41,160 nt of DNA from Hyphomicrobium sp. (GTDB taxonomy: Bacteria > Pseudomonadota > Alphaproteobacteria > Rhizobiales > Hyphomicrobiaceae): positions 1-41,160 of the forward strand of contig JABFRT010000019.1 of NCBI GenBank assembly GCA_013141015.1, read 5' to 3'. This document shows positions 2,082 to 32,455 of this stretch, piece by piece. Position 1 is the stretch's first letter, and every line of letters starts with the position of its first letter. The translations under genes were made by a program, and so were the position numbers. The notes under the pieces are model-generated. The model was not told the origin of the DNA. It did not search any database and saw nothing but the letters and a program-made list of their open reading frames with translations.

Positions 2082-2089
2082 TTCAAGGC

Positions 2090-2287
2090 GTGCTGGCACA
2101 CGCCGGCATTTCCGGCCGTGGCGCCTGTCTACGTGGTCTCCGTCACTCATTCGGTGTTGGAACCTTGCAAGCTGGCGTTCCGATTACGTTGCTGCAACGC
2201 TGGCTCCGCCATGCGCGGTTGTCGACCACGGAAATCTACACGAAAGTGATCGGACCGGAGGAGATCGCGTTTGCCCGCCTGTTCTGA
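2090..2287 (+). pseudogene. tyrosine recombinase C-terminal remnant
   Basis: The translated segment carries GLRHSFGVGTLQAG, a WLRHARLSTT stretch and the terminal IYTKV. These match the last catalytic boxes of XerC/D-type integrases (R, H and the Tyr nucleophile). The first arginine box and the whole N-terminal half are missing, and the HxxR motif has lost its first histidine (RGLR). There is no clear start codon with a ribosome site. I read it as a decayed fragment of an earlier integrase. Confidence 0.7.
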
Positions 2288-2343
2288 AAGGGCGACGGAC
2301 TATCGCGCTAGTCTTAGGACATGATCCCCGGCGCGGACATCGG

Positions 2344-2637
2344 TCACGCATCCCGGAAGGCGCGCCAGGCATTGTCCATCCTGCAAACGGAGAAGCGCCG
2401 GCCCGTCTCCTGTTTCAGTCGATAGCAGATGTCCTTGACGCGCTTGACGATCCCGTGGTCGGCGAAAGCGAAGGACTGGCCGACCTTCATCTTTTCAAGC
2501 GCCATGCGCTCAGGCGTCTTTGCGCCGGATACGAACTTCGGCTTCGCAACGCCCTTCTCGATCTTGTATCCCGACGGCTTCTTTGCTGCGGCGCTCTTGC
2601 GTGTTGTGGGCTTCGACTTCAATTTCCGTTTGGCCAT
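2344..2637 (-). CDS. small basic conserved protein
   Basis: This 97-aa protein has a very lysine-rich N-terminus (MAKRKLKSKPTTRKSAAAKK) that could bind nucleic acid. The C-terminal half (ERMALEKMKVGQSFAFADHG, then KRVKDICYRLKQETGRRFSV) resembles a small DNA-binding or regulatory fold. I start it at 2637, because GGGAGG stands six bases before that ATG; a longer reading from 2664 lacks this. It lies downstream of and parallel to repA. The function is unknown; a copy-number or host-interaction role is only a guess from position. Confidence 0.65.
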   Translation of the reverse strand: MAKRKLKSKPTTRKSAAAKKPSGYKIEKGVAKPKFVSGAKTPERMALEKMKVGQSFAFADHGIVKRVKDICYRLKQETGRRFSVCRMDNAWRAFRDA

Positions 2638-2662
2638 GCACCCTCCCCTGTTATTCTTGAAC

Positions 2663-2692
2663 ATAGTTTAGGGGGTGAATTGTCGGCGTCAA
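2663..2692 (-). promoter_or_regulatory. putative sigma70-type promoter for the 97-aa gene
   Basis: On the minus strand, TTGACG (2692-2687) and AACTAT (2668-2663) are 18 bases apart and about 25 bases upstream of the start codon at 2637. The match to a housekeeping promoter is reasonable, but it is based on sequence only. Confidence 0.45.
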
Positions 2693-2773
2693 TGTTCAGA
2701 TGACGCGCACATCGAGTCGCGACACGGGTCCTGCTCGGTTGTCGAGGTGGTCGACTGCGCGTCGTTCCGTCGA

Positions 2774-3826
2774 TCAGGGTGCCGCCTTGCCCTTGGTGTA
2801 GCTTGTCACCCAGCGAAGGAAGCGCGCATCCTCGTGGCGTGCAGCGTCTTTGGTCTTCGCCCACTCGATGTACATGCTCTCGAGCATGTACTTGTCCCAG
2901 CCCGGCGCCCGCTCACGCATGGTGTCGAACGCCGCTTGGGAAATACGGATCGCACGATCGGCAGTCGGTTTGACAATTTTCTCCCCCGCCTCTGTCGACT
3001 TTGCCAGACCTTCGCCACGGCGCCAGAACACCGCCTGTTCACCTTCCAGTGTCATGCGGTAATCCGGCAGATGATCAGACCGCGCGAGCTCGCGCAGGTG
3101 TGCTGCGAAATGCTTACCTTCCTGTTTCGAGCCGCACTTCTTCTGCAGCAGTTCAGAACCGATGCGCCAGCTTGGTTGCCGGCCACAATGTTTGCGCGCG
3201 ATCTCGTAAAGCCGTCGGTCGATCGGCCGGCGCAAGCGAAAATAGTCCCGGCTGATGGGCAGCACCTCAGCTGAAGTGACCGTGCGATACAGCCAATCGG
3301 AAAGCTTGATGTCGAGAAACTTGAGGCGCTCGGCGAAGCCGCTGCCCTTCCGGTTGTATTCGTACCATTCGATGATCCCGAAATTTTGGCGCGTCACCTC
3401 GCTGCCCGTCGTGATGTTGGTCTTGATGCGCGTCCCAGCCAGACGATCGAGCGCATTTTCCAGCCGCTCGTAGGTGATGCCGCCGGTTTGCCGGTTGGTG
3501 GCGACGAGCAGATCATGCGCCGTGATCCGCACCACCTGGCCGATCGCCGCTCCCCTGTTCTGCCTGTCCATCAGCTTGCTGATGGCATAGATCAGGATAT
3601 CCTTGTCGAAGATGGTGGCGAGGCCTTTGCTCGACGGGTGGATCTCGATGATGGTCTGGTCGTTCTCGTAGCGCAGCGTGCGCATGTCCGGATGCGTCGC
3701 CAGCGAGAAAATCGGATGGCCCATGGAGGCCATGTCTGAACGCGGCGTGACGTCGACGGCATCCAACTCGATACGATCGATGAAGAAGTCGCGCACGGGG
3801 TGGCGTTCAGGGAGCAATGCACTCAT
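2774..3826 (-). CDS. repA: replication initiator protein RepA (RPA family)
   Basis: This 350-aa protein is the plasmid replication initiator that binds iterons and opens the origin. The family is recognised from the conserved run MGHPIFSLAT (near residue 35), the DILIYAISKLMDRQN region, the winged-helix-like segment RITAHDLLVATNR, and LRRPIDRRLYEIARKHCG near residue 200. All are typical of 'replication initiator protein A' of alphaproteobacterial plasmids. I use the ATG at 3826; a TTG six bases earlier is possible, and neither has a good ribosome site. The iterons begin about 40 bases upstream, so RepA probably also represses its own transcription by binding them. Confidence 0.9.
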   Translation of the reverse strand: MSALLPERHPVRDFFIDRIELDAVDVTPRSDMASMGHPIFSLATHPDMRTLRYENDQTIIEIHPSSKGLATIFDKDILIYAISKLMDRQNRGAAIGQVVRITAHDLLVATNRQTGGITYERLENALDRLAGTRIKTNITTGSEVTRQNFGIIEWYEYNRKGSGFAERLKFLDIKLSDWLYRTVTSAEVLPISRDYFRLRRPIDRRLYEIARKHCGRQPSWRIGSELLQKKCGSKQEGKHFAAHLRELARSDHLPDYRMTLEGEQAVFWRRGEGLAKSTEAGEKIVKPTADRAIRISQAAFDTMRERAPGWDKYMLESMYIEWAKTKDAARHEDARFLRWVTSYTKGKAAP

Positions 3827-3866
3827 GCGCAAAGCGTAGATTGGCTTGCCGCATCGTCACAAATGA

Positions 3867-4055
3867 TTCGTTCTATCGGCGACCGATTCGGTCTTTCGCC
3901 GACATCGGCCCATATGCCCCAACTTCGTTCTTTCGCCGACCACTTCGTTCCTTTGGCGACCAGCCAGCAGCTTCGGTCATTTGCCGACCGATTTTCGGTC
4001 ATTCGCCTCCCCGCCTTCGGTCATTTGGCGACCAAACTTCGGTCTTTCGCCGACT
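3867..4055 (+). repeat. eight iterons of the replication origin
   Basis: Eight 18-bp direct repeats with consensus TTCGGTCWTTYGCCGACC start at 3867, 3887, 3924, 3944, 3972, 3994, 4016 and 4038. Six are close to consensus; the copies at 3867 and 3994 are more diverged. Spacing is mostly 20-22 bases, about two helical turns, so bound initiator would sit on one DNA face. Their place between repA and parA fits an iteron-controlled oriV. They are not CRISPR repeats: the spacers are only 2-19 bases. Confidence 0.88.
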
Positions 4056-4097
4056 TGAGCAATTTCAAATGGCAACGGGTTCAATGGCTTGCGCCAC

Positions 4098-4175
4098 GTA
4101 TCCACAGCCTTAACTTTCTAACTAATATTAACATTTTTAACATCATCGGATTTTGAAAATAGTTGGGATATGACG
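4098..4175. other. DnaA-box-like site and AT-rich unwinding region of oriV
   Basis: GTATCCACA at 4098-4106 differs from the DnaA box TTATCCACA by one base. It is followed by an AT-rich stretch at about 4110-4165 (TAACTTTCTAACTAATATTA and TTTTTAACATC). With the adjacent iterons this gives the usual iteron - DnaA box - AT-rich plan of a plasmid origin. Confidence 0.65.
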
Positions 4176-4338
4176 AAGCCTGTTTGATCTTCCATCAAGG
4201 ACCCTACCCTCTCCGACAATCAACCCGAATCGTTGTGGACTTCATCAGTCGTGACGGTACGCTGTCATGACGGCTCTACGAATTGCCGTAGTGCCATATC
4301 GCCGTATTGACGGGCTTTTCGCCCGGAACAGGATATTC

Positions 4339-5028
4339 ATGATCATTACTCTCGCCTCCTCCAAGGGCGGCGTCGGCAAATCGACCATCACCGGTTGCCT
4401 TGCCGGAGTCTGGGCCGCCGATGGCAACACCGTTCACATCGTCGACCTCGACAACAATCGCACCGTATCCCGCTGGTTCGCCGATGCGGCTCGACGGCCT
4501 GACGGCATTACGGTTTCGACCCCCGATCCGACCGGACTGACCGAGCACCTCGCCGACTTGGCGGCAACGACTGCACCCGACTTGGTGCTGATCGATGTTG
4601 CCGGCACCTACGAACGCGCGCTGACCGTGGCCGTCGCCCGCGCACACCTAACGCTCATTCCGGCAGCGCCGACCGAAGCCGATATCTACGAGGCCGCGCG
4701 CGTCGCCCGGCACATCACGTCGGTGTTCCAGGCCTTCGGTCGCGAGCCGCTGTTTCGCCTGCTGCTCAATCGTGTTCAACCGTTGGCATCCGGCGCGCAG
4801 CTGTATGCCACCTTGGAAATCGTGCGGCTCAAACTCCCGCGCCTGAAGACCCGCATCCATCAGCGTGCTGCCTATGAGGAATTAGGCTTATCCGGCCTGC
4901 CGCCACACTTCGCCGACCTCAAACGGCCGACCGTTGCGAAAGCGGTCGAAGAACTCGACGCTGTCCGCGCCGATATCGAGGAACTTCTCAAATCACACCA
5001 AACCGAAGCCCTCGAAGGAGTCGCATGA
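4339..5028 (+). CDS. parA: ParA-family partition ATPase
   Basis: This 229-aa Walker-type ATPase drives plasmid segregation on the nucleoid. The deviant Walker A box KGGVGKST is at residues 9-16, the Walker A' VDLDNN near residue 42 and the Walker B LVLIDVAG near residue 80. There is no N-terminal DNA-binding domain, so it is the short, VirC1/ParF-like type. I start it at 4339 because the protein then begins in the family's usual way (MIITLASSKGG) and a GGA-rich ribosome site precedes it; an upstream ATG at 4267 would add an atypical 24-residue tail. It overlaps the next gene by four bases (ATGA), so the two are co-translated. Confidence 0.92.
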   Translation: MIITLASSKGGVGKSTITGCLAGVWAADGNTVHIVDLDNNRTVSRWFADAARRPDGITVSTPDPTGLTEHLADLAATTAPDLVLIDVAGTYERALTVAVARAHLTLIPAAPTEADIYEAARVARHITSVFQAFGREPLFRLLLNRVQPLASGAQLYATLEIVRLKLPRLKTRIHQRAAYEELGLSGLPPHFADLKRPTVAKAVEELDAVRADIEELLKSHQTEALEGVA

Positions 5029-5351
5029 TGACCAAACCCAATTTCCGCCCGATCGCTCCACTCGATGCCGATGACGCCGCATTGGAGCGCGTCAATGAAT
5101 CACTCGGCGTGCCGACCATGGTGCGCCCGCCAGCCAAGGCTGTCTTGCCGCCGAGCCGTCCTGTCGCCACGCCGTCACGACGCCAAAAGAAGCTGACCTT
5201 CCGTGGGCCGGAGCCGGTGATTGATGTCTTGAAGCTCGATGCTCTCACCCAGAAGACCACTATACGTAACTTGATCCTGATAGCGCTGAGAGACAAAGGT
5301 TACCCTGTCCTCGACGAGGATCTGCTGCCCGGGGCAGGGGGCAGCGACTGA
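5025..5351 (+). CDS. small ribbon-helix-helix partner of ParA
   Basis: This 108-aa protein has a disordered Pro-rich N-terminus and a C-terminal segment KKLTFRGPEPVIDVLKLDA followed by TTIRNLILIALRDKGY. That is the pattern of a ribbon-helix-helix DNA-binding domain (strand then two helices). It starts within the parA stop codon (ATGATG at 5025-5030). A small RHH protein coupled to an orphan ParA is normally the centromere-binding protein (ParG/ParB analogue) and repressor of the operon. The domain is inferred from the residue pattern. Confidence 0.75.
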   Translation: MMTKPNFRPIAPLDADDAALERVNESLGVPTMVRPPAKAVLPPSRPVATPSRRQKKLTFRGPEPVIDVLKLDALTQKTTIRNLILIALRDKGYPVLDEDLLPGAGGSD

Positions 5352-5804: not shown

Positions 5805-6254
5805 ATGCGTGGAGTCATAAAACAATTTTGGGCGTCGGCGGCGTTTGAACATCATTACAATCAGCGGCAAGCCATTATAATTTCCAGCCAGCAAAACACA
5901 AACCGTGCGCTCGGCCGAGCGGTACTCGCGGCGCGCATAATTGGTAAACCATTAAATGTGATAGCTTACCACTATCGTGGCGTCGCAGGTTATCGACATT
6001 ACGATACAGGCAAAAGAATAAATCGTAGGATGGCGGCAGCATTCACATACAATGAAATAATCAGCGAAGCCAGACACTTTTCAAAATCTGCGCTCGTCCG
6101 CAGATTATCGCGCTACGTCCCGACCTTCGACGCGATGCTTGCAAAGTTTATGGACCCCCATATTAAAGCATTCCAGGTCAAAGAGCCTGCACCGGACAGG
6201 CCACCTACAGTGGACGTTGACAAAGCACGAGCCGCGCCGCGAGCACCCAGCTGA
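5805..6254 (+). CDS. unknown 149-aa protein
   Basis: I do not recognise this protein. The ATG at 5805 has a strong ribosome site (AAGGAG), and the first three quarters are more A+T-rich than the neighbours, which supports a separate acquisition. It is basic and aromatic (KQFWASAAFEHHYNQRQ, then YHYRGVAGYRHYDTGKR), with no visible membrane segment or signal peptide. The C-terminal 30 residues look disordered. It stands between the partition genes and the convergent membrane-protein gene ending at 6264. Confidence 0.65.
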   Translation: MRGVIKQFWASAAFEHHYNQRQAIIISSQQNTNRALGRAVLAARIIGKPLNVIAYHYRGVAGYRHYDTGKRINRRMAAAFTYNEIISEARHFSKSALVRRLSRYVPTFDAMLAKFMDPHIKAFQVKEPAPDRPPTVDVDKARAAPRAPS

Positions 6255-6263
6255 ACGCAACAC

Positions 6264-8144
6264 CTACGGTTTCCAATTCTGTTGTGTGCATACCGTATTC
6301 CATGCCCACGCAACTTCCTGTGCTAAGTAGGTTGTCCCACCAGTGTCGGGGTGGTTTTTGATTTTCAAATCCCGTACTTTCTTGCGGCACTCCACCTCCT
6401 TTTCTTTCATAACGCCAGCCTGCACCCATGCCGTAAAATCCAAAACGCTACACGCGCGCGCATAGTCCTTTGCAACCGAATCATGCCCATGCTCTCGCCG
6501 TTTCCGCTGCTCTTGCCGTTCCTGCTCTTGCCGTTGTCGCTCCTGTTGTTCCTGCTGCGCGCGAATACGCGCCTCTTCATCGCGTTGTTTCCGTGCCTTC
6601 GCTTCGGAACTGTACTCGTTGATGAAGTCGTCAAATTGTCGCCGCATAGGCACGAATTTGTTGAGCCAGACACCAAACGGATTATTGTTCAAGCTCGCAG
6701 ACAAGATCACGACGAGCACAGCGGTTAGGGCAATCACGTAGTTGCCGAGATTTGCGGCGAACCATGTCAAACTAAGTGCCGCGTAGTAAAGAGCCTGACC
6801 GAGCAGCCAAAGTCCCCACACGCCGAGCTGCCACAACAGCCATGCCCCCCAAATCACGAGTTGCACAGCAAGCCAAATGAACCATGCAATGATCGTGTAA
6901 ACCAGCCAGAAGAATTGCACGAACGGCTTGGCCAGCCACCACAGCACGTCAGAAATCGAACCGAACACCCAAACGAACGGCGCGGACACCCACGCCCATA
7001 TTGCACCGAACAACCAGCCGATCCACGGCAGCACACCGCCGCTGTTAGTCGACAGCCACTGCCATCCGCCACTCAGCCACTGTCCCGTTGCACTCCAATC
7101 GTTCCAATCTCCTCCAGCCGCAACCATCGCCGTCAGCGACGCTTGGCATCGAGGCCAAGCCGAAGGCAGCAGCAGCGTTGAGCCACAATGCGGTGCGGAC
7201 TTATTCAGAGCCGCCGCGAGTGGGCTCGTTATACTTCCATGCACCCAATACAACAAACTTCCCTCGACTTGCCTCCATTCAGGATGCTGTCCGAGCACAT
7301 GTAACGGCGCTAGAACGGCCGCCACCAAGGCCACGGCCAACGCCAGCCAACGCACCAAGCGGACGAGCAGGCGCACCACTAACCTTGCAGCTGTGCCGCT
7401 GCTAAACCAAAGCCAAAAGGCCACCACCAACAGACCACCAAACAACGTCTGGCTTGCTGTCCAACTCCGGTTGTCGGTTGCCGTCACTGCCACTGGCACA
7501 GCCCGAGCCAGCGGGGTTGCAGCAGGAACTGTTGATGCGGTTATATCGGGTTTTGGTGCGTCAACGCCGACCCGTGGTGCTGGCGGCGGAGCACTTACTA
7601 ATTCGGGTGGCCGTTGCGGTTGCCACGGCTGACCCGATGGCCAATCAATGCGTCGGCCTGTGCCGGATGTCCGAACAGGATTACTTATCCGAACGCACTC
7701 AGTGCCTTGAACCCGAATCTCAAAACGACGGAATTCGTAGTCGAACCTCTGACTGTCTGCGTAAAGGCTCAGTGACACATCAAAAGACGGTGGGCATGGC
7801 TCACGGGAACGACCGTTGCCCAAGATAAACCGGCCCGTGATTGACTGACCACTGCGGTAACCATTGCGTAAAAAGTCATCGCCAATGCGCACATCAGCCG
7901 TAGGCATAGGCTCTATCCCAAGAACCCGCGCCCGAACACCACCACCCCAACTGTCTTCCGTCAGCGAAAAAAAGATTGTCCGTTCTGAACCAGAAGGGGT
8001 TGGCCATTCCAATCGCCAATAAGTGACTTCGGAAAAAAAGGGTGTTTGGGCATGGCTACGGTGCATCGTCGTTAGCATCAGCAACAACATGGCCAGCAAG
8101 CCAAGCAGCGACCGAGCCACAAAGGTCGCACCTGTACTCAGCAC
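6264..8144 (-). CDS. Trp-rich multi-spanning membrane protein with C-terminal J-like domain
   Basis: This 626-aa protein has an unusual architecture. A signal peptide or first membrane segment (RSLLGLLAMLLLMLTTM, ending SHAQ) is followed by an exported domain of about 150 residues with a Cys pair. A Pro-rich linker, a membrane block around 230-285 and a very Trp-rich hydrophobic region (about 360-500) come next. A Glu/Gln/Arg-rich coiled coil (about 525-570) leads to a C-terminal segment with the HPD motif of J domains (KNHPDTGG, H598-P599-D600). J domains recruit Hsp70/DnaK. The GTG at 8144 has a GGGGG ribosome site and overlaps the stop of the upstream 45-aa gene; longer readings lack the signal peptide at the N-terminus. 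The function is unknown; a membrane tether for DnaK is inferred. Confidence 0.8.
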   Translation of the reverse strand: MLSTGATFVARSLLGLLAMLLLMLTTMHRSHAQTPFFSEVTYWRLEWPTPSGSERTIFFSLTEDSWGGGVRARVLGIEPMPTADVRIGDDFLRNGYRSGQSITGRFILGNGRSREPCPPSFDVSLSLYADSQRFDYEFRRFEIRVQGTECVRISNPVRTSGTGRRIDWPSGQPWQPQRPPELVSAPPPAPRVGVDAPKPDITASTVPAATPLARAVPVAVTATDNRSWTASQTLFGGLLVVAFWLWFSSGTAARLVVRLLVRLVRWLALAVALVAAVLAPLHVLGQHPEWRQVEGSLLYWVHGSITSPLAAALNKSAPHCGSTLLLPSAWPRCQASLTAMVAAGGDWNDWSATGQWLSGGWQWLSTNSGGVLPWIGWLFGAIWAWVSAPFVWVFGSISDVLWWLAKPFVQFFWLVYTIIAWFIWLAVQLVIWGAWLLWQLGVWGLWLLGQALYYAALSLTWFAANLGNYVIALTAVLVVILSASLNNNPFGVWLNKFVPMRRQFDDFINEYSSEAKARKQRDEEARIRAQQEQQERQRQEQERQEQRKRREHGHDSVAKDYARACSVLDFTAWVQAGVMKEKEVECRKKVRDLKIKNHPDTGGTTYLAQEVAWAWNTVCTQQNWKP

Positions 8145-8275
8145 AGCATCCCCCTTGCCTCTGTGGACGCCGCACCACGCTGCGCGCCGTTGAAATAGCC
8201 AATCGCTCCCGCCAATTCTGCCGCGCTCGCCACATCCTTGGCCAGCTTCGCGGCGTCCTTCAAAGTCTTGGACAT
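8138..8275 (-). CDS. 45-aa small protein, N-terminal paralogue of the zinc-ribbon protein
   Basis: This small gene starts at ATG 8275 after an AGGG ribosome site, six bases beyond the stop of the 185-aa gene. Its stop TGA (8140-8138) overlaps the GTG start of the membrane protein gene (GTGCTGA). The N-terminus MSKTLKDAAKLAKD is nearly the same as that of the 185-aa neighbour (MFKTLKDAAQLAKD); 14 of the first 19 residues are identical. The rest is a short hydrophobic or amphipathic tail (LAGAIGYFNGAQ) ending in Cys. The matched position, coupling and similarity make it likely to be real. It may be a partner that competes with or assembles alongside the longer protein. Confidence 0.65.
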   Translation of the reverse strand: MSKTLKDAAKLAKDVASAAELAGAIGYFNGAQRGAASTEARGMLC

Positions 8276-8281
8276 CAAGCC

Positions 8282-8839
8282 CTATCGTTTTGGCAGCAAT
8301 ACTTGGCGAGGAGGCGCAGGCAACGCCGTTGGATTTTGCTTCAACACCAGCAGTGAATCGGACGGCGGGCGCGTGTAACCCGTCCAGTTGCAATAATCGC
8401 AGGTGATCTTTGTGCCGTTGCCATCACGAAACGCGGTCGAGCCACACTGTGATGATCCGCAGGCGCAGCTAACGAATGTCATCATGCCGGCAGCGCCGTG
8501 CCAATGACAACACGGACACGCCCAATCCTTCCAATCGAACTCATCGCTGGGTTTGGTTTCCGAGTCCGGCGAAGCCGTTCCCGATTGCGCCGGAGCAGAC
8601 GCCAGGCGCACATCAATTTCATAACCCGTCACCACGAACTTCTCACCTCGCTTGCGGCGCAACACCGCCACATAGGGTTTGCCCAACGACCCGCACATGA
8701 ACTGCATCCGTACCCGCTCGATGCCGAGTGCATCTTCCGCTCTTTGCGCAGCGTGCCCGGCTTTGCCGCCCACATAGTTGCGGCCGGCGTCCGCCAAATC
8801 CTTCGCCAACTGCGCGGCGTCTTTCAGTGTCTTGAACAC
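8282..8839 (-). CDS. 185-aa zinc-ribbon protein with amphipathic N-terminus
   Basis: The N-terminal 35 residues form an amphipathic helix (KTLKDAAQLAKDLADAG). A predicted beta-rich part follows (about 40-80), then a Ser/Pro linker and a metal-binding region with Cys at 108, 111, 125, 127, 132, 147 and 150 (CPCC, SCAC, QC, CDYC). The spacing recalls the TerY-C type of zinc ribbon, but I cannot confirm the family. It starts at GTG 8839 with GGAG eight bases upstream, 17 bases after the preceding gene. It lies in one operon with the J-domain membrane protein. A role as adaptor for that protein is inference. Confidence 0.75.
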   Translation of the reverse strand: MFKTLKDAAQLAKDLADAGRNYVGGKAGHAAQRAEDALGIERVRMQFMCGSLGKPYVAVLRRKRGEKFVVTGYEIDVRLASAPAQSGTASPDSETKPSDEFDWKDWACPCCHWHGAAGMMTFVSCACGSSQCGSTAFRDGNGTKITCDYCNWTGYTRPPSDSLLVLKQNPTALPAPPRQVLLPKR

Positions 8840-8856
8840 AGCTCGGTCTCCACGCG

Positions 8857-9903
8857 CTAGATCGTATAGTCGTCACGCCGGCTCGTCCGCGCAGGTTGCT
8901 GCTGCGAACGATGGGCATCATCGTGACCCGGGGAACGGGACAGCGTAGGAGGCGGCAGCAACGTGTCATTCAAACGTCGCTCGATGGTACGCAACTCTTC
9001 GGGTCGCGCACCGCACGGCCAGTAGGCCAGCATACCGCCGTTCTTCAGATGCACGGCCAATGCCGAACCGTGGTACACTGGATCGCTTGGTTTGATGCCC
9101 CAATAGTTGGTCAAGCGCAGATGTTTGCGCACCTCCGCCGCAGGCTCGAATGTGAAGTGCTTTATGTGCATCGTACCCGCCGGTGAATCCGCAATCATTT
9201 TGTCACCGAACCACTGGAAGAAAAATTTTATCATCATTCCATCAGGCGACAGGCGCGCGCGATACAGCACACGATCACTGCAATGAACGTACTCGTTCGA
9301 CCCGCTGCGGTCCGGGCGGTCATCGTAAAATTCCACGTTCGGTGTTTTGTACCCATAGCCAGCCAAGCGGCCATTCCTCACGTGATCATCCCAACCGCTT
9401 CTTGGCTTTCCCTCGATGAACGCGCGATGCAACTCGGCAAAGATACGGCGCAAAGACGTATGGTCGCCGGCATGTTCGCAAATCCTAAAGGTGCGACCGT
9501 CTTTCAGATGTGCCAGAATAACGTCATGCTCGATAAACAGGAGATTGCCGCTGGAAACGGCACGGCGTTCTGCGTGGCCTAGATCCAGCTCGGATTTTGA
9601 GCACCGCTCGAAGCTGTCCAGCAAGTCCGCAGGGAAGGCCAACAGCAGCTCCGGCTGGCGTTGCCGTTGCGTGCTGGTCAGGTGGAAAAAGGCGAACACA
9701 TCGTCGATGTAAGCCGCATGCGAAATCGCGCGCGACGATTCCACCACGCGGTCATGACGCGGCGCATTCGGGTTGTGACCGATGGTGACGGGTTGCGTGT
9801 TGACGTGCGGGCCAGTGATTTGGAACGTCCATTGCGGCAGCCGGAAGGCGTTGCGCTCTTTGCCGTGTACCACGGACCAGCTAACGGAGGGCAGGTCAGT
9901 CAT
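8857..9903 (-). CDS. unknown 348-aa protein, first gene of the zinc-ribbon/J-domain set
   Basis: I do not recognise this protein. I start it at ATG 9903, where GGAG precedes by nine bases; upstream residues in the frame look non-coding. It is soluble, rich in aromatic residues and histidine, with no signal peptide or membrane segment. The middle contains FFFQWFGDKM and NYWGIKPSDPVYHGSALAVH. The last 40 residues are Arg/Ser-rich and probably disordered. Because it is separated from the zinc-ribbon gene by only 17 bases, it very likely belongs to the same functional unit. Confidence 0.7.
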   Translation of the reverse strand: MTDLPSVSWSVVHGKERNAFRLPQWTFQITGPHVNTQPVTIGHNPNAPRHDRVVESSRAISHAAYIDDVFAFFHLTSTQRQRQPELLLAFPADLLDSFERCSKSELDLGHAERRAVSSGNLLFIEHDVILAHLKDGRTFRICEHAGDHTSLRRIFAELHRAFIEGKPRSGWDDHVRNGRLAGYGYKTPNVEFYDDRPDRSGSNEYVHCSDRVLYRARLSPDGMMIKFFFQWFGDKMIADSPAGTMHIKHFTFEPAAEVRKHLRLTNYWGIKPSDPVYHGSALAVHLKNGGMLAYWPCGARPEELRTIERRLNDTLLPPPTLSRSPGHDDAHRSQQQPARTSRRDDYTI

Positions 9904-9916
9904 TTCGAGCACTCCG

Positions 9917-10150
9917 CTAGGAGCAAGGCCGCACGGCAGGTAGCCCAAGGTAATCCCGGGCGTCGGACACGCCCAGCTTATCGACCTTGCGCGCCTTCTG
10001 CTGCACACTATAGCGAGGCCGCGCCAGCATCAGCCGGCTATCGGCAGCTTTTCGCCAGTCATAAAGCCGGTGATCGCTCGCATCGACACCGCCATTCCTG
10101 GTTTCCGGCTCGATGTCCCGGTCCCTGACTTTCTTGCTCGGTTTGGTCAC
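9917..10150 (-). CDS. small basic protein, unknown
   Basis: This 77-aa protein from a GTG start at 10150 is rich in Lys, Arg and Asp (TKPSKKVRDRDIEPETRNGG). It fits exactly between the 177-aa gene and the 348-aa gene, with gaps of 32 and 13 bases, as expected in an operon. No strong ribosome site is visible, so the start and even the gene are uncertain. Confidence 0.45.
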   Translation of the reverse strand: MTKPSKKVRDRDIEPETRNGGVDASDHRLYDWRKAADSRLMLARPRYSVQQKARKVDKLGVSDARDYLGLPAVRPCS

Positions 10151-10182
10151 CGTCGTGTATCCATTCAGTGCGGCCGGTCGCG

Positions 10183-10716
10183 TCAGCCTTCACGGCCACC
10201 GCGTTCATTAGCTTTGGTTCGATCGCCGGCGTGGCGCGCCAACTCCTCGCGCGCCGATGTCGCAAGCCCCGCCGTGAACCCTGGTTCGAACATGCCCTGC
10301 GTCTGTCCCACGATTTCGGCACGTGCCGCGTCGAACGTGGATTGCCAATGGCCTTCGATGCCTTCGGCACCACGCGGATGCTTTTCAATGTAGGCAGCCA
10401 GAGCCTTCTCGATGAATTCTTCCGGGCTCGACAGCATGTCACGCTTCATCAGGAGCTCGATCTTTGCCCTTGTTGTCGGGGACACAGGCACGTCATCCTC
10501 GGTGTCGGATGTGTAGAGCTTCGCCAGCCGCGCCTTGTGCCGCGTCACGTACTCAGGTGTGTCGAGGACATCCTGCTTTCCGGTCTTGCGCGCCTTCTGC
10601 AGCACACCAAGGAACTCCTCGCTGTCGCGCATGCGCTCCAGCATCCAGAGTGCCAGATCTTGATCGGAGGCATCCTTGTGGGGCATGGCGGACGAACTAT
10701 TCGGCATCTTTGTCAT
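10183..10716 (-). CDS. unknown 177-aa protein with possible RHH-like segment
   Basis: The ATG at 10716 overlaps the stop of the preceding gene by 20 bases; a second ATG at 10707 is also possible. A long upstream extension of the frame would run deep into the neighbour and is rejected. The middle (SPTTRAKIELLMKRDMLSS, then EEFIEKALAAYIEKHP) resembles a ribbon-helix-helix or small helical DNA-binding unit. The N-terminal third is helical and charged. Its place after a coupling-protein gene suggests an accessory transfer role, but this is inference. Confidence 0.65.
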   Translation of the reverse strand: MTKMPNSSSAMPHKDASDQDLALWMLERMRDSEEFLGVLQKARKTGKQDVLDTPEYVTRHKARLAKLYTSDTEDDVPVSPTTRAKIELLMKRDMLSSPEEFIEKALAAYIEKHPRGAEGIEGHWQSTFDAARAEIVGQTQGMFEPGFTAGLATSAREELARHAGDRTKANERGGREG

Positions 10717-11041
10717 CCTGCTTGCGGAGGTACCGATCGACCAGCACGTCGTCGCTTTCGAGAAGAGACGCGTCGATCCCGCCATACTTTTCGAGATAGA
10801 GTTCGACCATGATCTCAAAAAGTTCCGGCAATCCGTCGTGCTCGTCGCGATCGATGATATGGTCGACGACCGCCCGGACTTTCAGTTGCATGCGTAGAGC
10901 CATCTGTGCCAAGCGCCCGCGGCGGCGCTTGCCACGCCGATCCTTCGGCGGCTTTCCGTAGGCGCGATCCATGGGGCTCATGTTCGCGCGCGCTTTCGCC
11001 TGACGCCGGCGTTCTTCCTCCTCTCCATCGTCACCGTGCAT
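10697..11041 (-). CDS. unknown 114-aa charged helical protein
   Basis: The protein is highly charged at the N-terminus (EEEERRRQAKARA), followed by a basic stretch (KDRRGKRRRGRLAQ) and a helical acidic C-terminus (LPELFEIMVELYLEKYGG). I use ATG 11041, which has GGAG nine bases upstream and overlaps the previous stop by 11 bases; ATG 11056 is the alternative. The tail overlaps the next gene, indicating translational coupling. Its function is unknown. Confidence 0.65.
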   Translation of the reverse strand: MHGDDGEEEERRRQAKARANMSPMDRAYGKPPKDRRGKRRRGRLAQMALRMQLKVRAVVDHIIDRDEHDGLPELFEIMVELYLEKYGGIDASLLESDDVLVDRYLRKQDDKDAE

Positions 11042-11930
11042 CGGTCGCGCTCCCATTGAGCGTGAACCTAGCCGGGCTCCGGCGCCGATGCCACTGGCTC
11101 ACATCTTTCGAGTGAGGAAGACTTACCGCGCTCGGCTCCGACGGGCGTTCTGGATCTCGCCACCGCAGCAAGGCCGAACCGTTCAACAGCAGGACCAGAA
11201 TGACCGAGCCGAGCTCGATGGTGACAGCCAAGGCAACCGAGAGCCCGCGCCGTAAGCGCAACGTGTCGATACCCAGCACGTCGGCCACCGCCGCTGCTTG
11301 TGGGTCACTCTCGCCCGCACTCGACGACATGCCAACGAGCCGTGCCGAAAGCGCGGACCGTTCCATCATCAACGCTGAACGGTCGTTTGCTGCCGCCCTT
11401 TCGGATTTGAGGCGCAGAACCTCGCTACAGAACTGACGCACGGTTGCCCCAGCGACGGCGACGCAGGAATTGGACGATGTCCAATGGCGGTCCAGCATCA
11501 TGCGTGCAAGTTCGACGTCGAGCACGCCGACCGTTCGGCCATGTGGCAATTGCTCGAGCCGTGCATCGAGATCGCGCAACTGGAGCTGAGCGCTGGAACG
11601 CACATCAGCATCTGCTTGACGCGCCGCAGTTGCGGCACCACGCGTCAGGGCGGCGAATCCTATGCCGGACGCCAGCGAGAGGGCGATGACGATGCCGAGC
11701 ATCAACGATGCCCCAGCCAACTGGCCCCATGCGCGCAGCACGATGGCACGAACGACGACGACTGGGAGGACGGCTTTGGTCACGTCGGCGGCCATGCTGA
11801 GCACGGCAAGGATGCTGGCCTCCGTCGCCGTCCGACCAAGGGAGGAGAGGAACAGCGCGTTCATCGTGGCGGAGAGGGCGATGAAAAGCGCAGCCGCTAT
11901 GGCGATGCAGAGAGTAGGCAAAGAAGACAT
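11031..11930 (-). CDS. integral membrane protein next to the coupling protein
   Basis: This 299-aa protein has three predicted N-terminal membrane segments (about 5-28, 50-67, 73-97), a central soluble helical part (about 100-225, two Cys) and a fourth segment (about 228-251) before a basic tail. The ATG at 11930 has a clear GGAGA site six bases upstream. The previous gene is a VirD4-like ATPase that lacks its own membrane anchor, so this protein may supply the anchor or dock. That partnership is inference from adjacency. I do not recognise the family. Confidence 0.75.
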   Translation of the reverse strand: MSSLPTLCIAIAAALFIALSATMNALFLSSLGRTATEASILAVLSMAADVTKAVLPVVVVRAIVLRAWGQLAGASLMLGIVIALSLASGIGFAALTRGAATAARQADADVRSSAQLQLRDLDARLEQLPHGRTVGVLDVELARMMLDRHWTSSNSCVAVAGATVRQFCSEVLRLKSERAAANDRSALMMERSALSARLVGMSSSAGESDPQAAAVADVLGIDTLRLRRGLSVALAVTIELGSVILVLLLNGSALLRWRDPERPSEPSAVSLPHSKDVSQWHRRRSPARFTLNGSATDAR

Positions 11931-12002
11931 GACGATCTCCCATATGGCACCTGCCCAAGGGGATATCTTCTGTCGAATGGCTGTCCCAGCAATCAGGTCG
12001 AG

Positions 12003-12020
12003 ATCAACCTGATATCGAGT
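12003..12020 (-). promoter_or_regulatory. second copy of the 18-bp shared motif
   Basis: ATCAACCTGATATCGAGT differs at one base from 2064-2081. It lies 73 bases upstream of the membrane protein start at 11930, in the 188-base gap after the coupling-protein gene. It may mark a separate promoter or operator for the downstream genes. Confidence 0.4.
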
Positions 12021-12118
12021 ACCTGGTCGCGTGGAACCGACCGGCCACACGGAACACAGACGAACCGCATGCAGCGCAGCTGATCGATGATGCGGTAACT
12101 GGTGGTGTCCTATTGCGA

Positions 12119-13579
12119 TCATGGGTCAAACAGACCCGCGAATGGCTTATCCTCGTAGTAGACGATGCGTTGCAGAATGACCGGCGACTGGCCGGCCGCT
12201 CTCACAAGAATGCGTCGCGTTTCGCGTTCCAATATTTCTTCGAGTTCGTGCGCCGCCGCCAGCTTTTGCACGCGCAGCTCATCGCGCGACCCTGTGGCTC
12301 CGCTGAGGCGCTGCGACATCGTCGTGTCCGACTTCCGTTCCAGCAGAACACTCGTCTGGCCCAGCTTATCAGATACGTAGTCCAAGGTCGTCTTGTCAGA
12401 ATTCGACCAGAACGTCGTCACGCCGGCATTGCCGACAAATGTCTCCCAGCTTTCCTTGTACAGCCGCTTGATCTGGGTCATGTCCTGCAACACGACCCAC
12501 AACTTTACGCCGAAGCCAGCCATAAGGCCGGCCGCGACCTCGACCGATTTCATGTGGCCGAGTACCGCGAACTCGTCGAGCACCATCAGCGCCGGCATGT
12601 CCGTTTTGGCCTTCGTGCGCTCGAAAGCAATCAGCGCCAGATTGATGATGACGCGCAGCCAGCGTGCGTGCGTACCCATGCGCGTAGCGGGTAGACAGAG
12701 ATAGAGCGTCGATTTCTTTGTCTTCAAATCCGACAGGCGAAGATCACTCCCCGAAAGCACGTTCGCCATGGCGTCGCTGTCGAGAAATTCGAGTTGCGTC
12801 AATGTGGTCGAGAACACACTCTGCAGTTCCTTGTCCGCCATCTGCCCGAAGTTGATGCCGGCGGATGCGACCGTGCCGCCGAACGCCTCGCATGAGCGCA
12901 GCAGCAGAAATAGGGCGGGCCGAGAACCGCACTCCTTGCGCCGCGCAATGTCGGTCACGAGAGGATGCGTTCCGTTCAGCAGCTGCCATACGGTCAGGAG
13001 ATGTCGGTCTTCTTTCGACAAGGTCAGTGTATAGAGAATAAGGGCCTTGGTAAGGATGCGGGCACTATCCGTCCAATGCGGGTCGCGGTCGTTGGGGACA
13101 ATCAGCGCATCGGCAACCTGCCCTGCGTCGTCCTTGACGTGCTGGCTTCCCGGATCGATTTCGTCGAGTGGGTTGAAACGACCCGACGGCACGCCGCTTT
13201 CATTGAACGGGTCTAGAACGACAACCTTCTGGCCCTTTTGCCGACGCGCACGGACTGTGATGCGGGCAAGTTCGCCTTTGGGGTCGATGGCGAGAACAGA
13301 CCCGTCATAAAGCAGCAGATTCGGCACGATGAGGGACACACCCTTGCCGCCACGAGAACCGGCCACTGTCAGAATGTGCCGGTTGTCCTTGCTGCCGATG
13401 GCGCGCCCGTTGCGAAAGCCGAGGATGATGCCGCCCACCTGGCCCGATGGCATCCGGTAACCCCACATCTGCTGATTCAACTTCTCGGGATCGAGCCAAG
13501 CGGCATCGACGAGGTTGCCCTGCATGCCCGACACACCACGGCGCAGTGCCGCTTTTAGGTCTGCCTCGAAGTCGCTCAT
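12119..13579 (-). CDS. VirD4/TraG-type coupling protein (lacks N-terminal membrane domain)
   Basis: This 486-aa ATPase couples the relaxase-DNA complex to a secretion channel. Walker A GSRGGKGV is at 74-81, Walker B ALMVLDEFAVLG at about 330-341, and the family's FNPLDEI segment and conserved glutamine-rich helix (VVLQDMTQIK) are present. Typical members are 550-700 aa with two N-terminal membrane segments. Here none is visible before the Walker A box, and the length is correspondingly short. The ATG at 13579 has an AGAGG site. It heads the minus-strand block and is followed by a membrane protein gene. No other type IV secretion gene lies in the window. Confidence 0.9.
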   Translation of the reverse strand: MSDFEADLKAALRRGVSGMQGNLVDAAWLDPEKLNQQMWGYRMPSGQVGGIILGFRNGRAIGSKDNRHILTVAGSRGGKGVSLIVPNLLLYDGSVLAIDPKGELARITVRARRQKGQKVVVLDPFNESGVPSGRFNPLDEIDPGSQHVKDDAGQVADALIVPNDRDPHWTDSARILTKALILYTLTLSKEDRHLLTVWQLLNGTHPLVTDIARRKECGSRPALFLLLRSCEAFGGTVASAGINFGQMADKELQSVFSTTLTQLEFLDSDAMANVLSGSDLRLSDLKTKKSTLYLCLPATRMGTHARWLRVIINLALIAFERTKAKTDMPALMVLDEFAVLGHMKSVEVAAGLMAGFGVKLWVVLQDMTQIKRLYKESWETFVGNAGVTTFWSNSDKTTLDYVSDKLGQTSVLLERKSDTTMSQRLSGATGSRDELRVQKLAAAHELEEILERETRRILVRAAGQSPVILQRIVYYEDKPFAGLFDP

Positions 13580-14207
13580 GTCGTTGCCTCTCGTCCGCCT
13601 CTCTTGGACGCACTTTATGGAGAGCAGCGTTGCCCCAGACAGGTTCGTTGAGTCCGCAGTCCAGATGATATCAAAAACTCATTGCAAGCAAAGAGCCCAC
13701 TCTCGCGCATGCAAGAATTTCATAGTTTCATCCTAGGACTTAACGACCGCGATCCTACTTGCGTGCGAAGGCCTTGTTGCCTGGCGGTCTGCACCGTTTC
13801 ATCCAGCAGACTTCGGAGTACGTAGCGTTCGGGTAGATGGCGTCCTTCACTCAATCAACCCTCCTTGATCGTTTCTCTCAATCCGTCTTTTGCGACCCCG
13901 TAGTTTGCCGCGCTTGTCTCACAGTCGCCGCATCCATGGGGACGGGTGCGCCGCCCGCTGACGCGGCCAAGGGCGGCGAGCCCTTCAACGACAAAATGGC
14001 TGGACCCACCACGACATTGCGCTTGCGCACCCCGTGAGCAAGCCACGGGGCCCCGCGCCGGGCGGCGAAGCAAGACGCCGCCCTCAAGCACAATCTCGCG
14101 GTCCCCCAGCAATTTTCTCGTGTGACCCCGATGCGACGCTGTGAGTCTTAGGCGGCAACGAGGTCGCCAATTCCGGCCCTCGCTCAACAACCAAGAAGGG
14201 TCAGATC
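13580..14207. other. divergent intergenic region with GC-rich hairpin
   Basis: This 628-base gap separates the minus-strand coupling-protein block from the plus-strand small-gene block and must hold both promoters. I find no supported gene. A perfect 8-bp stem GGGCGGCG (14060-14067) / CGCCGCCC (14076-14083) with an 8-base loop stands about 125 bases before the first small gene, next to the palindrome GGGGCCCC (14047-14054). It could be a leader structure or attenuator; there is no T-run to call a terminator. Confidence 0.45.
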
Positions 14208-14444
14208 ATGACAACGCCATCCAACAAACCAACCCATCGCGCTTACGCTGTCACCAAACGCGGCGAAAAGAGCCGCTGGCAAGAAATCGGAGCTGCCTGG
14301 GCGCACAAAGACAACAAGGGCTTCAACCTGAAGCTCGACTATCTGCCGCTCAACGGCGCCGAACTGGTGCTGCGTGTCCCGGATGCCGCCGAAGCGGCCA
14401 CCGCCGATGAAGCAACCGCTCCTGCAAACGAAGGAGGCTTCTAA
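14208..14444 (+). CDS. 78-aa conserved small protein (W..HKD.KGFN type), copy 1
   Basis: The core WQEIGAAWAHKDNKGFNLKL is shared with the gene at 17539 (WTEVAACWPHKDGSGFNVKF), so the two are paralogues. Such proteins are common next to plasmid genes, but I know no assigned function. The start is at ATG 14208. The stop TAA overlaps the ATG of the next gene (TAATG). It is the first member of the small-gene operon. Confidence 0.8.
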   Translation: MTTPSNKPTHRAYAVTKRGEKSRWQEIGAAWAHKDNKGFNLKLDYLPLNGAELVLRVPDAAEAATADEATAPANEGGF

Positions 14445-17538: not shown

Positions 17539-17760
17539 ATGACCACCACGACAACCGAAAAGAAGAAATCATTTCCAACATACAAGCTGTACCGCGTCGT
17601 CAAGGGACGGACAAAGGAAGACAAGTCCATCTGGACTGAGGTCGCGGCCTGCTGGCCGCACAAGGACGGCAGCGGCTTCAATGTGAAATTCAAATTCAAC
17701 GAAGCCCCCGCAGTAGGCGCGGAATACGTCATGCGCCGCGATACGCGCACGTCGGCGTGA
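17539..17760 (+). CDS. 73-aa conserved small protein (W..HKD..GFN type), copy 2
   Basis: It is a paralogue of the gene at 14208; WTEVAACWPHKDGSGFNVKF is the shared core. The N-terminus is Thr/Lys-rich. A GGAG site precedes ATG 17539, and an inverted repeat lies immediately upstream. Two paralogues framing the overlapping series suggest that they regulate or serve the same process. Function unknown. Confidence 0.8.
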   Translation: MTTTTTEKKKSFPTYKLYRVVKGRTKEDKSIWTEVAACWPHKDGSGFNVKFKFNEAPAVGAEYVMRRDTRTSA

Positions 17761-17769
17761 GGTGGCGAC

Positions 17770-18030
17770 ATGGCAAACATGACTCCGACACGACGCCAAG
17801 ACCTTGCATGGCAACGACGTCGCAGATGCTGGCAACTCACCTATGACAACCTCGTCGTAGCGTTCATCGAACACGATGGCTCACGCTGGCTTTGCTACAC
17901 AGCGGAAGATACCGGAGATGATGGCTTCCTCGGCCTGATGCCTTCGCTCGCCGACGCCAAGGGCTACCTCGAACGTCGTGCAGCAGTCGCCGCAGCGGCT
18001 GAATTCGAAGCCGCTGCTCGTCCGCTCTGA
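17770..18030 (+). CDS. 86-aa small protein
   Basis: The basic N-terminus (TPTRRQDLAWQRRRRCWQ) is followed by an acidic centre and an Ala-rich helical tail. GAGGTGG lies before the ATG, nine bases after the previous stop. No recognised domain. It is the last gene before the structured mobilization region. Confidence 0.65.
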   Translation: MANMTPTRRQDLAWQRRRRCWQLTYDNLVVAFIEHDGSRWLCYTAEDTGDDGFLGLMPSLADAKGYLERRAAVAAAAEFEAAARPL

Positions 18031-18668
18031 CTGCCTTCAAGCCGTGCCCACGCTGCTCACGCACCGTCGCACGGCTTGCTGCGAATTCCGTGCTATCACG
18101 TTGATACAATGGTGATGGCAGGCGGGAACTTGGCATTCGCGCGGCACTTCAATGCCGAAGGCGGATGCTAATTTGTTGCTATCAACCTGCTACGCAGATG
18201 GCTGCTCGTTGATAGCCTGGAGAGACGTCGATGTATCTGTCGTCGATTGCCTGAAGAGGTCTCGCATCTCGCATTCTGATTTCATCTTGGGCGATACCTG
18301 AAACAAGACTGATAGCAAGCAATCCTTAGCCGATGCCGCGCCGTCGTGCCGTCACGACGGCTTATGAAAAACGTCCGATGCCGCCGTGGCGTGGGGGATG
18401 CCGTGTATCGGCATAGTGCTGCTCGCCCGCCATGTTTGCGTTCTGACGGACGCCCGCCGCACGAATGGTGTCCTCGTTTTGCTATGCGTCGCCCATTCGT
18501 CGTGCCGATGGTTCCGCCAGTACATCCCACCACTGACATTGACCTCGACGAATGGGCCAGCTTTGCCGGACTTCAGGGCGGCGAGATTTTGAATTACCCG
18601 CTATCAGCTTGATTGTTTCTGCTTTGGTTTGGTCATCGGCATTTATACTCTGGCCAGCGCGGAAGGGG
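18031..18668. other. non-coding region with two inverted repeats upstream of the mobilization genes
   Basis: I see no supported gene. The 9-bp inverted repeat GCTATCAAC (18178-18186) / GTTGATAGC (18208-18216) encloses 21 bases. A near-copy, TATCACGTTGATA, lies at about 18093-18105. A perfect 9-bp hairpin, GCCGTCGTG (18340-18348) / CACGACGGC (18353-18361), has a four-base loop. These could be binding sites for MobC or the relaxase within a broader oriT region. Confidence 0.5.
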
Positions 18669-18754
18669 TAGCAAGATGGGTTTTCGTTTCACGAAAACTC
18701 GCCGGTAAACCGGCTCATCTTGTTGGGGCTACGGACCTGAAGGTCCCGCGCCCC
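18669..18754 (+). other. highly structured segment, candidate oriT (or structured RNA)
   Basis: The segment folds compactly. An outer stem of 10 pairs (18669-18678 with 18716-18725, including two G-T pairs) encloses two hairpins: GTTTTCGT/ACGAAAAC (18680-18687, 18691-18698) and GCCGG/CCGGC around TAAA (18701-18714). This gives a three-way junction. A further hairpin follows: GGGGC/GCCCC at 18725-18729/18750-18754 with inner GGACC/GGTCC at 18733-18737/18742-18746. It ends 36 bases before mobC. Such clustered repeats beside a relaxase operon suit an origin of transfer; I cannot identify the nic site. Confidence 0.55.
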
Positions 18755-18790
18755 AAGCCCCCGGACGCTGCGCTCTGCTGGAGGAGTGCA

Positions 18791-19180
18791 ATGCAAAAAT
18801 CCAAAATTCCGGCGAAGGTGCGTCCCGCAAAGGGGCGACCGAAAGCAGCACGCGTCAAAGATCACTGGATCAGCTTCCGGGTGACGGCGGAAGAGCATTT
18901 CCAACTCATCGACAAGGCGAACCGTAGCGGCATGGGCCCCGGCGACTATGCGCGGTCGCGTGCGTTGCGTGGCATCGCCCGCGCGAAGAAGGCCGGTCCG
19001 TCGACAACGCCGGTCTTCGGTGATGCCACGCGCGACGTCTTCCACGAACTGCGCCGTCAGGGTGTGAACCTCAATCAGATCGCCCATCTCTGCAATCGCC
19101 ACCAGTTGCCGCCACTGCCGCAACTTGGCGACCTCGCCACGGTCATCACCGCGCTCTGGGAGAGGCTGCTCAAGTCATGA
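18791..19180 (+). CDS. mobC: MobC-like relaxosome accessory protein
   Basis: This 129-aa protein has the MobC pattern: a basic N-terminus, a ribbon-helix-helix-like segment (WISFRVTAEEHFQLIDKANR) and the C-terminal signature ELRRQGVNLNQIAHLCNRH. Such proteins bind oriT and help the relaxase to open the DNA. I start it at ATG 18791, where GGAGG lies six bases upstream; the longer frame from 18629 would run through the structured segment. It overlaps the relaxase gene by four bases. Confidence 0.88.
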   Translation: MQKSKIPAKVRPAKGRPKAARVKDHWISFRVTAEEHFQLIDKANRSGMGPGDYARSRALRGIARAKKAGPSTTPVFGDATRDVFHELRRQGVNLNQIAHLCNRHQLPPLPQLGDLATVITALWERLLKS

Positions 19181-21057: not shown

Positions 21058-21641
21058 CGGACACCCTGGGCAGGCCAAGCCAGGGCGTCCTCGAAAACCA
21101 GACGGCCGCCGCGCGCACTGCTGTTGATGTCCGCCGCGATCATCAGGATATCCGTTTGCGCACCCGCCGTGCCCTCATGGCCATCGGGACATCCGAACAA
21201 CAGCTACTCGCAGCCAGCCAACGGGCCGCACGGCAATCCGCGCTTCAAGCGATCGATGCTGGGTTGTCGGCGCGTCATGCCAGTGCGATTGCTGCCGTGG
21301 TGGCGCGGTACGCTGATCGCAAAGCCGCACTCTCAGATGTGGAGCCGTCTGCCCGCGCCGATGCGATCCGCGCGCTCGTTGCCGAGGAAGTTCACGAGTT
21401 GGCACGCCTCGCGCTGGAGCATGCCGCAGAGAAGCGCGCGCTGCGCAAATCGGTAGTGCTGTCCTTGGCAACCGTGCATCGCATCGAGCGCCGGAGTATG
21501 CGCACCCGAAACCGGCGCCAGCGGATCATGGCGGCAGTGGTGATGCAGCCGAGGGAGCGGCCAAGAGCCGACGGCGCGACGAGGACAACCGCACACCGCG
21601 CGACCAGGTTGGCCAAGTTACATGAGCAACGTCGGCAATAA
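21039..21641 (+). CDS. mobilization-associated helical protein
   Basis: This protein of about 200 aa overlaps the end of the relaxase gene. The start is unclear: TTG 21012 and GTG 21039 are both possible, and I use GTG after an AAGGG stretch. It is Ala/Arg-rich and mostly helical (ARHASAIAAVVARYADRKAA), with a very basic C-terminus that would favour DNA binding. It probably belongs to the mobilization operon. No known family recognised. Confidence 0.6.
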   Translation: MGAGPVTDTLGRPSQGVLENQTAAARTAVDVRRDHQDIRLRTRRALMAIGTSEQQLLAASQRAARQSALQAIDAGLSARHASAIAAVVARYADRKAALSDVEPSARADAIRALVAEEVHELARLALEHAAEKRALRKSVVLSLATVHRIERRSMRTRNRRQRIMAAVVMQPRERPRADGATRTTAHRATRLAKLHEQRRQ

Positions 21642-21903: not shown

Positions 21904-22100
21904 GAACGGTCGGTCTTGGATGATCATCGAGCACCGCTTCCTACGGTGGCCTCAGACTGATTCCGGTCGAGGTTGACCCGTTGCTGACTCTGTCTGAGCG
22001 GCGCTGGCCGGCAAACGCGATGTCCGGAATCGTGCGACAAGCCGCCAGTCGCTGGCCAATCTCGGCGCACCGCGCAGCGCTGCTGATCTCTTGCTTCTGA

Positions 22101-26786: not shown

Positions 26787-26798
26787 GAGGGCCGCCGA

Positions 26799-28119: not shown

Positions 28120-28122
28120 GTG

Positions 28123-31795: not shown

Positions 31796-31811
31796 ATTAC
31801 TTCGAGCGTAC

Positions 31812-31932: not shown

Positions 31933-31947
31933 GCAGCGTCACGCCCG

Positions 31948-32403: not shown

Positions 32404-32455
32404 GCTCGGCTCCTTCGTTATCAGCACCGTAGCGCAAATGAGCGCCGAATGAAAT

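Follow-up and report, generated by a model that had tools for sequence, protein, structure and literature searches.

A mosaic, Trp-rich membrane protein with a predicted J domain is encoded behind the coupling-protein genes of a putative mobilizable element of Hyphomicrobium

Contig JABFRT010000019.1 of Hyphomicrobium sp. (41,160 bp, analysed in its entirety and hereafter called the window; contig C49 of the 3.94-Mb, 69-contig source genome G000) looks like a mobilizable plasmid or an integrated element. On its minus strand, at positions 6264–9903, a module of four genes (encoding P0004, P0003, P0002 and P0001, in this order) lies behind the gene for a VirD4/TraG-type type IV coupling protein (T4CP). 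The last of the four products, the 626-amino acid (aa) protein P0001, is best explained as a membrane-tethered class-C J protein, and we propose, with a probability of about 0.38, that the module is an accessory and exchangeable tail of the T4CP series, in which P0001 would recruit DnaK to the T4CP/relaxosome for export. Comparison genomes are designated G055, G072 and G258, with C and L denoting contigs and loci, and the coordinates of the window features are collected in Table 1.

An earlier reading made from the sequence alone had described P0001 as having a signal peptide, an exported domain, a very Trp-rich membrane block, a charged coiled coil and a terminal HPD segment, and all of these were present in that order, with 21 Trp within residues 341–470; signal peptides, transmembrane (TM) segments and topology of all proteins discussed here were predicted from hydropathy and by eye. 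Both the location of the HPD between the predicted helices II and III and the sequence profiles identify the C-terminal tail as a J domain. A profile built from six chromosomal J tails (L004–L009) ranked P0001 at the top of 7,689 open reading frames (ORFs; E = 1.5e-6); these six tails first surfaced as weak tblastn matches of P0001 and hence are a non-random choice, and the one that was checked (L005) matched Pfam DnaJ at 4.4e-11. Leave-one-out profiles recovered the tails of the window, G055 and G258 proteins at 3.2e-6, 5.9e-6 and 1e-3, respectively, with the best non-target ORF in the chromosomal-only and leave-one-out searches at E 0.12. When the profile of these three element tails (A6) was compared with the PDB, 49 sequences were found at E≤1, mostly named DnaJ or J proteins and with Tim14 on top (6.1e-6), while in the four genomes (E≤1) it marked four further places in G072 and three in each of G000, G055 and G258, with scores far below those of the element tails (best 2e-8). 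The HPD and GG residues were invariant in 5/5 aligned tails, and the profile matches of the tail bear out the earlier suggestion of a membrane-tethered J protein. In the AlphaFold2 (AF2) model of P0001 (mean predicted local distance difference test score, pLDDT, 46.8), residues 581–626 reached a pLDDT of 68–74, with helices at 568–575, 583–596 and 605–622. A Foldseek search with this weak model gave Tim14 with a probability of 0.97 and TMt 0.52, but at E 0.3 and rank 17, where it was preceded by matches of low probability to other folds; no match reached E≤0.001. The C-terminus is J-like by profile.

The four minus-strand ORFs are, as first described, almost gapless (+17, +6 and −7 nt from P0004 through to P0001), and they form the end of a longer series on the same strand. 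This series starts above position 9903 with the T4CP gene (from 13579) and continues with genes for a 363-aa, a 119-aa, an up to 211-aa and a 77-aa product before P0004 is reached, with intergenic gaps between T4CP and P0001 ranging from −122 nt (at an uncertain start) to +32 nt. This gene order suggests a single transcript from the T4CP gene to P0001; a promoter and terminator scan of the series gave counts close to those of shuffled sequences and neither favoured nor excluded a boundary within it. The T4CP has an NTPase domain without an N-terminal TM segment, as in T4CPs lacking a transmembrane domain (TMD-less T4CPs), with its sole hydrophobic segment above threshold being internal (residues 346–364) in an assignment made by Pfam and hydropathy only. 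The 363-aa protein, with four hydrophobic segments, is a candidate membrane partner of the T4CP.

The closest relative found was contig JAIEPV010000071.1, from a metagenome-assembled genome labelled Hyphomicrobium sp. and corresponding to G055:C262, which by blastn shares the backbone regions (serine recombinase, RPA, ParA/VirC1, T4CP, MobC/NikA-like and relaxase) at 79–91% identity. Comparison of the two elements gave synonymous and nonsynonymous divergence (dS/dN) of 0.27/0.03 for P0004, 0.38/0.06 for P0003, 0.46/0.03 for the T4CP and 0.29/0.09 for the P0001 core (residues 261–500, 84% identical at 202/240 residues). P0001 residues 34–227 had a dS of 2.1 and 26% identity, and the tail (551–626) was saturated at 31% identity. 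Because the saturated ends surround a conserved core, both ends of P0001 appear to be in-frame replacements, and despite this the signal segment, the exported domain, the HPD and the GG are all present in both orthologues. At the sequence level, this retention of the layout with exchanged ends is the strongest argument for P0001 working as a unit in its whole architecture. A 149-aa ORF without a Pfam match (5805–6254, plus strand) is convergent with P0001 and lies almost fully inside the second replaced segment.

A further element, G072:C213 from another genus of the family, aligned by blastn to the rep/par region (91% over window 2085–5351) and to the T4CP series (82% over 10098–13594), with the T4CP itself being 87% identical to that of the window. 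Between these blocks (L037, 6345–8435), it encodes a 263-aa membrane protein, a 129-aa protein with a TM segment and coil, and a 300-aa protein of exported type, and there was no J match on this 12.7-kb contig. The 77-aa ORF of the window matches the first 49 residues of the G072 263-aa protein, and the P0004–P0001 module therefore appears to have replaced the 263-aa gene. More generally, this site behind the T4CP genes could be a hot spot.

The other three products of the module are less readily assigned. The protein reported to have eight Cys in ribbon pairs was confirmed as P0003, a putative zinc ribbon with the eight Cys in a 43-residue stretch (108–150) plus C49, and all nine Cys are retained in the 90% identical G055 protein. 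The 45-aa P0002, described previously as a paralogue, is indeed similar to the N-terminal part of P0003 (score 65 in alignment, matched by 0/2,000 shuffles), but appears to be a fragment that is not conserved: within the first 35 codons, it differs from the G055 counterpart at 9/13/4 sites in codon positions 1/2/3 with 15/35 residues identical, compared to 19/8/52 in 348 codons for P0004 and 13/8/41 in 185 codons for P0003. Given this pattern and the similarity to P0003, P0002 is a partial duplicate without sign of protein-level conservation. P0004 was 94% identical in G055 with dN well below dS, and its AF2 model had a mean pLDDT of 30.5; internal repeats in P0004 were rejected, as their score was reached by 417/1,000 shuffles. 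Searches of Pfam, PHROGs and NCBIfam with P0001–P0004 gave rows judged to be noise only, and PDB sequence searches with P0001 and with the P0003 and P0004 alignments gave nothing useful, with one zinc-finger row at E = 0.3.

Among 103 genomes of the family, P0004 and P0003 each matched two, the source genome included, and full-length P0001 matched the same two; a further 23 tblastn rows of P0001 were short (E 6e-4 to 0.01). P0004, P0003 and P0001 thus co-occur on related elements, and the expectation that the four genes recur together held for three of them, but in one close relative only. In the order sample (397 genomes), P0001 at E≤1e-6 matched its own genome and G258, and P0004 matched its own genome with no match in G258. 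Two weak P0004 rows in this sample (L022 and L023) were dropped, with the first being a stretch with a peptidase-like ORF (by eye) and the second matching the same profile positions. P0003 was searched in the family sample. A pattern scan with P0004 over one genome per species (84,980 species) returned one relative, the G055 contig. No relative of P0001, P0004, P0005, the G258 J protein or the 363-aa or ~179-aa neighbours was found in the plasmid database, no relative of P0001 in the phage database, and none in IMG/VR scans with P0001, P0004, their alignments, the P0003 alignment or the G258 J protein; a weak plasmid match of P0003 (H1) was dropped, being antisense in an apparent oxidoreductase ORF.

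A second, distant T4CP-J series was located via its J protein, not via its T4CP, on G258:C26, where a relaxase gene is followed by genes for a T4CP (17552–19093), 234-aa and 225-aa membrane proteins, an 85-aa protein and, four genes behind the T4CP, a 292-aa protein with TM segment, coil and J domain (21116–21994). The two series share a T4CP, membrane proteins, a TM-coil-J protein, an upstream relaxase and (by eye) a small ORF like that at window 14208–14444. They differ in that the J protein of G258 lacks, by eye, both an exported domain and a Trp-rich core, and that none of the genes in the G258 stretch inspected resembles P0003 or P0004 by eye. Small look-alike proteins (W..VGAAW.HKD.KGF type, by eye) are encoded at window 14208–14444 and 17539–17760 and at L027 (near 2300–2626, beside the G258 series), the first with a sub-threshold DUF736 row (E 0.07). 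In the family of G258, the J protein was found in 1/6 genomes, G258 itself. The G258 T4CP partner matched one plasmid record, of Indioceanicola, adjoining a T4CP and without a J profile; it gave no match in 385 genomes of the class, a sample without positive control and therefore uninformative. The J profile was detected in 3/33 distinct T4CP loci (window, G055 and G258), making it a rare and accessory feature.

Taken together, the J profile, the T4CP gene order, the co-occurrence of the module genes, the second T4CP-J series and the retention of the HPD through tail replacement support a role of the module at the T4CP. The J domain is a handle by which DnaK is summoned, and where a membrane protein carries its J domain on the cytoplasmic side, local recruitment of Hsp70 is expected, as is established for Tim14. 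We infer that P0001 would hold its variable exported domain outside, its multi-span Trp-rich core in the membrane and its coiled coil and J domain on the cytoplasmic side, and would bring the DnaK of the host to the place at the inner membrane at which the anchorless T4CP receives the relaxosome. The T4CP/relaxosome is the likely client, since the P0001 gene adjoins that of a T4CP without its own anchor; DnaK may then remodel or unfold the relaxase or the T4CP complex for export via a helper type IV secretion system (T4SS), with P0003 and P0004 as putative cytosolic partners. The sole match to a VirB4-type ATPase (PF03135) in G000 was on contig C11, and a helper T4SS may therefore exist. The idea that P0001 acts in DNA transfer, put forward from the sequence alone together with DnaK recruitment, gains support from the series shared with the T4CP and from the G258 series, while the recruitment of DnaK would follow from the J domain by analogy.

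Several observations weigh against this proposal. The chromosomal-only J profile reached the G055 tail at just 0.12 and the G258 tail at 1.5, and all three element tails are under the Pfam DnaJ gathering cut-off of 27.8 bits (PF00226: no match at E≤1 for the window tail, 20.5 bits and E 5e-4 for G055, 14.9 bits for G258), which is a matter of sensitivity rather than a biological feature; the AF2 models of P0001 and P0004 were poor. Relatives of P0001, P0003 and P0004 were confined to two Hyphomicrobium elements in the searches made, and the corresponding slot in G072 holds other genes, as it would for cargo. No VirB4-type match was found in G055. An operon is uncertain in G258, because the largest gap (290 nt) precedes its last two genes, those for the 85-aa and the J protein. 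The J profile was also absent at E<0.1 from the 30 other T4CP loci, G072:C213 included, which were fetched by T4CP or relaxase similarity and several of which are cut by contig ends or flank, such that J genes farther away may be missed; a J protein is therefore not a general requirement of T4CP function.

A competing explanation, possible although we consider it doubtful, is that a variable slot carries the module as cargo, which acts in surface sensing or exclusion, with the exported domain recognising a partner or an invader (plasmid, phage or envelope damage), the J domain relaying this to DnaK, and the location next to the T4CP reflecting transcript hitch-hiking. The unrelated genes that G072 has in this slot, with the ParA region on one side and the T4CP genes on the other, fit such cargo, and the replacement of the exported domain between modules that are otherwise 88–92% identical in nucleotide sequence (P0004, P0003, P0001 core) is what one would expect for a recognition domain. 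However, recognition diversity alone does not predict replacement of the J tail, nothing like this exported domain was seen by eye in the J protein of G258, and PADLOC at E≤0.1 assigned none of P0001–P0005 to known anti-phage defence, with no model for P0001, P0002, P0004 and P0005 and one row for P0003 (0.033) taken as noise. It is less likely that P0001 serves as a general aid to envelope proteostasis of the host, like chromosomal membrane J proteins, and is on the plasmid by chance: Tim14 is the top match of the three-tail profile, and the chromosomal tails of the family that P0001 matched come from proteins of ~240 aa that, by eye, have a hydrophobic segment at the N-terminus, but J proteins of this sort are encoded in two distinct T4CP series, and P0003 and P0004 matched just the two elements in the family sample.

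DnaJ and DnaK reportedly activate RepA of P1, and the window element does carry an RPA initiator, yet assistance by P0001 in activating this initiator is very unlikely, given the membrane tethering of P0001 and the presence in G072:C213 of the RPA gene on a contig without a J match. The sequence-only reading also offered a Ter-like stress operon, from the paired Cys of P0003 with a CxCG...C element, a layout of the TerY-C type. This link can hardly be upheld: Pfam TerY_C (PF15616) did not match P0003 or P0006 at E≤1 and had no match in the source genome at E≤10 (14 control genomes also gave none above the cut-off, so that the power of this search is not demonstrated), G055 gave one weak row (0.034) elsewhere in its genome, and no Ter family was found among the Pfam-scanned window proteins, a subset of the window genes.

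The genes for a relaxase and a T4CP without a VirB4-type ATPase on the contig are consistent with a mobilizable element, and a serine recombinase is also encoded (Pfam). No exact end overlap of 15–399 bases was found in the contig, and circularity is thus without support. Two 37-bp direct repeats (86% identical, 3971–4007 and 4015–4051) between the rep and ParA genes are candidate iterons or partition sites, with one of them also matching in G072:C213. Region 24378–39364 holds chromosome-like cargo (glyoxalases, ArsR, AHSA1, GyrI-like, TetR and GFA-type) adjoining an IS91-type transposase with an integrase and a DDE transposase, and within it only 31945–32480 aligned to the G055 contig (blastn). 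A gene in this region (30113–31795, plus strand) encodes a product of 560 aa, in which Pfam shows AlbA_2/Schlafen and RecG-C-like domains and which has a PADLOC row for Aga_SIR2-PNTD1-PNTD2 at 2e-5.

Table 1. Features of the window discussed in the text, in order of position
Feature	Position	Strand	Basis or remark
RPA-type replication initiator	2774–3832	-	Pfam
ParA/VirC1-type ATPase	4267–5028	+	Pfam
Replaced segment 2: end of coil, J tail, 3′ flank	5812–6522	.	blastn gap, identity profile
P0001, 626-aa membrane protein	6264–8144	-	ORF, hydropathy, profiles
J-domain tail of P0001 (residues 551–626), predicted	6267–6494	-	HPD at 6345–6353; profiles
Charged coiled coil of P0001 (residues 501–550)	6495–6644	-	sequence, AF2 model
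Trp-rich membrane core of P0001 (residues 261–500)	6645–7364	-	conserved vs G055
Replaced segment 1: signal segment, exported domain, up to residue ~260	7365–8168	-	blastn gap, identity profile
Exported domain of P0001 (residues 34–227)	7464–8045	-	26% identical to G055 allele
P0002, 45-aa ORF	8138–8275	-	partial duplicate of P0003 start
P0003, 185-aa, putative zinc ribbon	8282–8839	-	Cys pattern
P0004, 348-aa, fold unassigned	8857–9903	-	conserved in G055
77-aa ORF, apparent remnant N-terminus of G072 263-aa membrane protein	9917–10150	-	sequence match
Up to 211-aa protein of T4CP series, start uncertain	10183–10818	-	ORF calls, comparison with G072
119-aa protein of T4CP series	10697–11056	-	ORF calls, comparison with G072
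363-aa protein, four hydrophobic segments	11031–12122	-	overlaps T4CP end by 4 nt
VirD4/TraG-type coupling protein (T4CP)	12119–13579	-	Pfam PF02534 2.2e-70
MobC/NikA-like relaxosome protein	18629–19180	+	Pfam
MobA/VirD2-type relaxase	19177–21057	+	Pfam

The J domain itself is of a known kind, and what appears new is a membrane J protein of mosaic, Trp-rich make-up that is encoded behind a T4CP, with both ends apparently exchanged around a core that stays the same. P0001 resembles the Tim14/Pam18-type class-C J proteins in having a membrane anchor and a C-terminal J domain with HPD, but differs from these in its exported domain, multi-span Trp-rich core, coil, score under the Pfam DnaJ cut-off and location on an element beside a T4CP. 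The chromosomal ~240-aa TM and J proteins (L004–L009) have the tail pattern HPDxGGxTYLA in common with the window tail, but are short and have neither exported domain nor Trp-rich core. Certain TMD-less T4CPs interact with small membrane proteins (PMC7434980), and the window T4CP, without N-terminal hydrophobic segment and with membrane proteins encoded next to it, has a similar layout. The likeness is by layout only, as the window partners had no Pfam match above cut-off and the passages of that review on TMD-less T4CPs mention no J-domain partner. No description of any J protein linked to a T4CP, or of one of the mosaic, Trp-rich membrane kind in this position, was found in the open-access literature, which was covered mostly at title level and does not extend to preprints or subscription papers; in the parts of PMC11253643 consulted, 'J-domain' is present in the reference list only. 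The same T4CP review names the unfolding of relaxases for T4SS export as an unanswered question (PMC7434980, in its part on this subject). A bolder and rather unlikely extension of our proposal is that P0001 is a plasmid-encoded recruiter of the Tim14 kind, with DnaK at the TMD-less T4CP supplying force or unfolding for relaxase export, and with the exchangeable ends retuning the protein when the host or the helper T4SS changes. With its gene located behind those of a T4CP, such a J protein would open a role of DnaK in relaxase export to a direct test.

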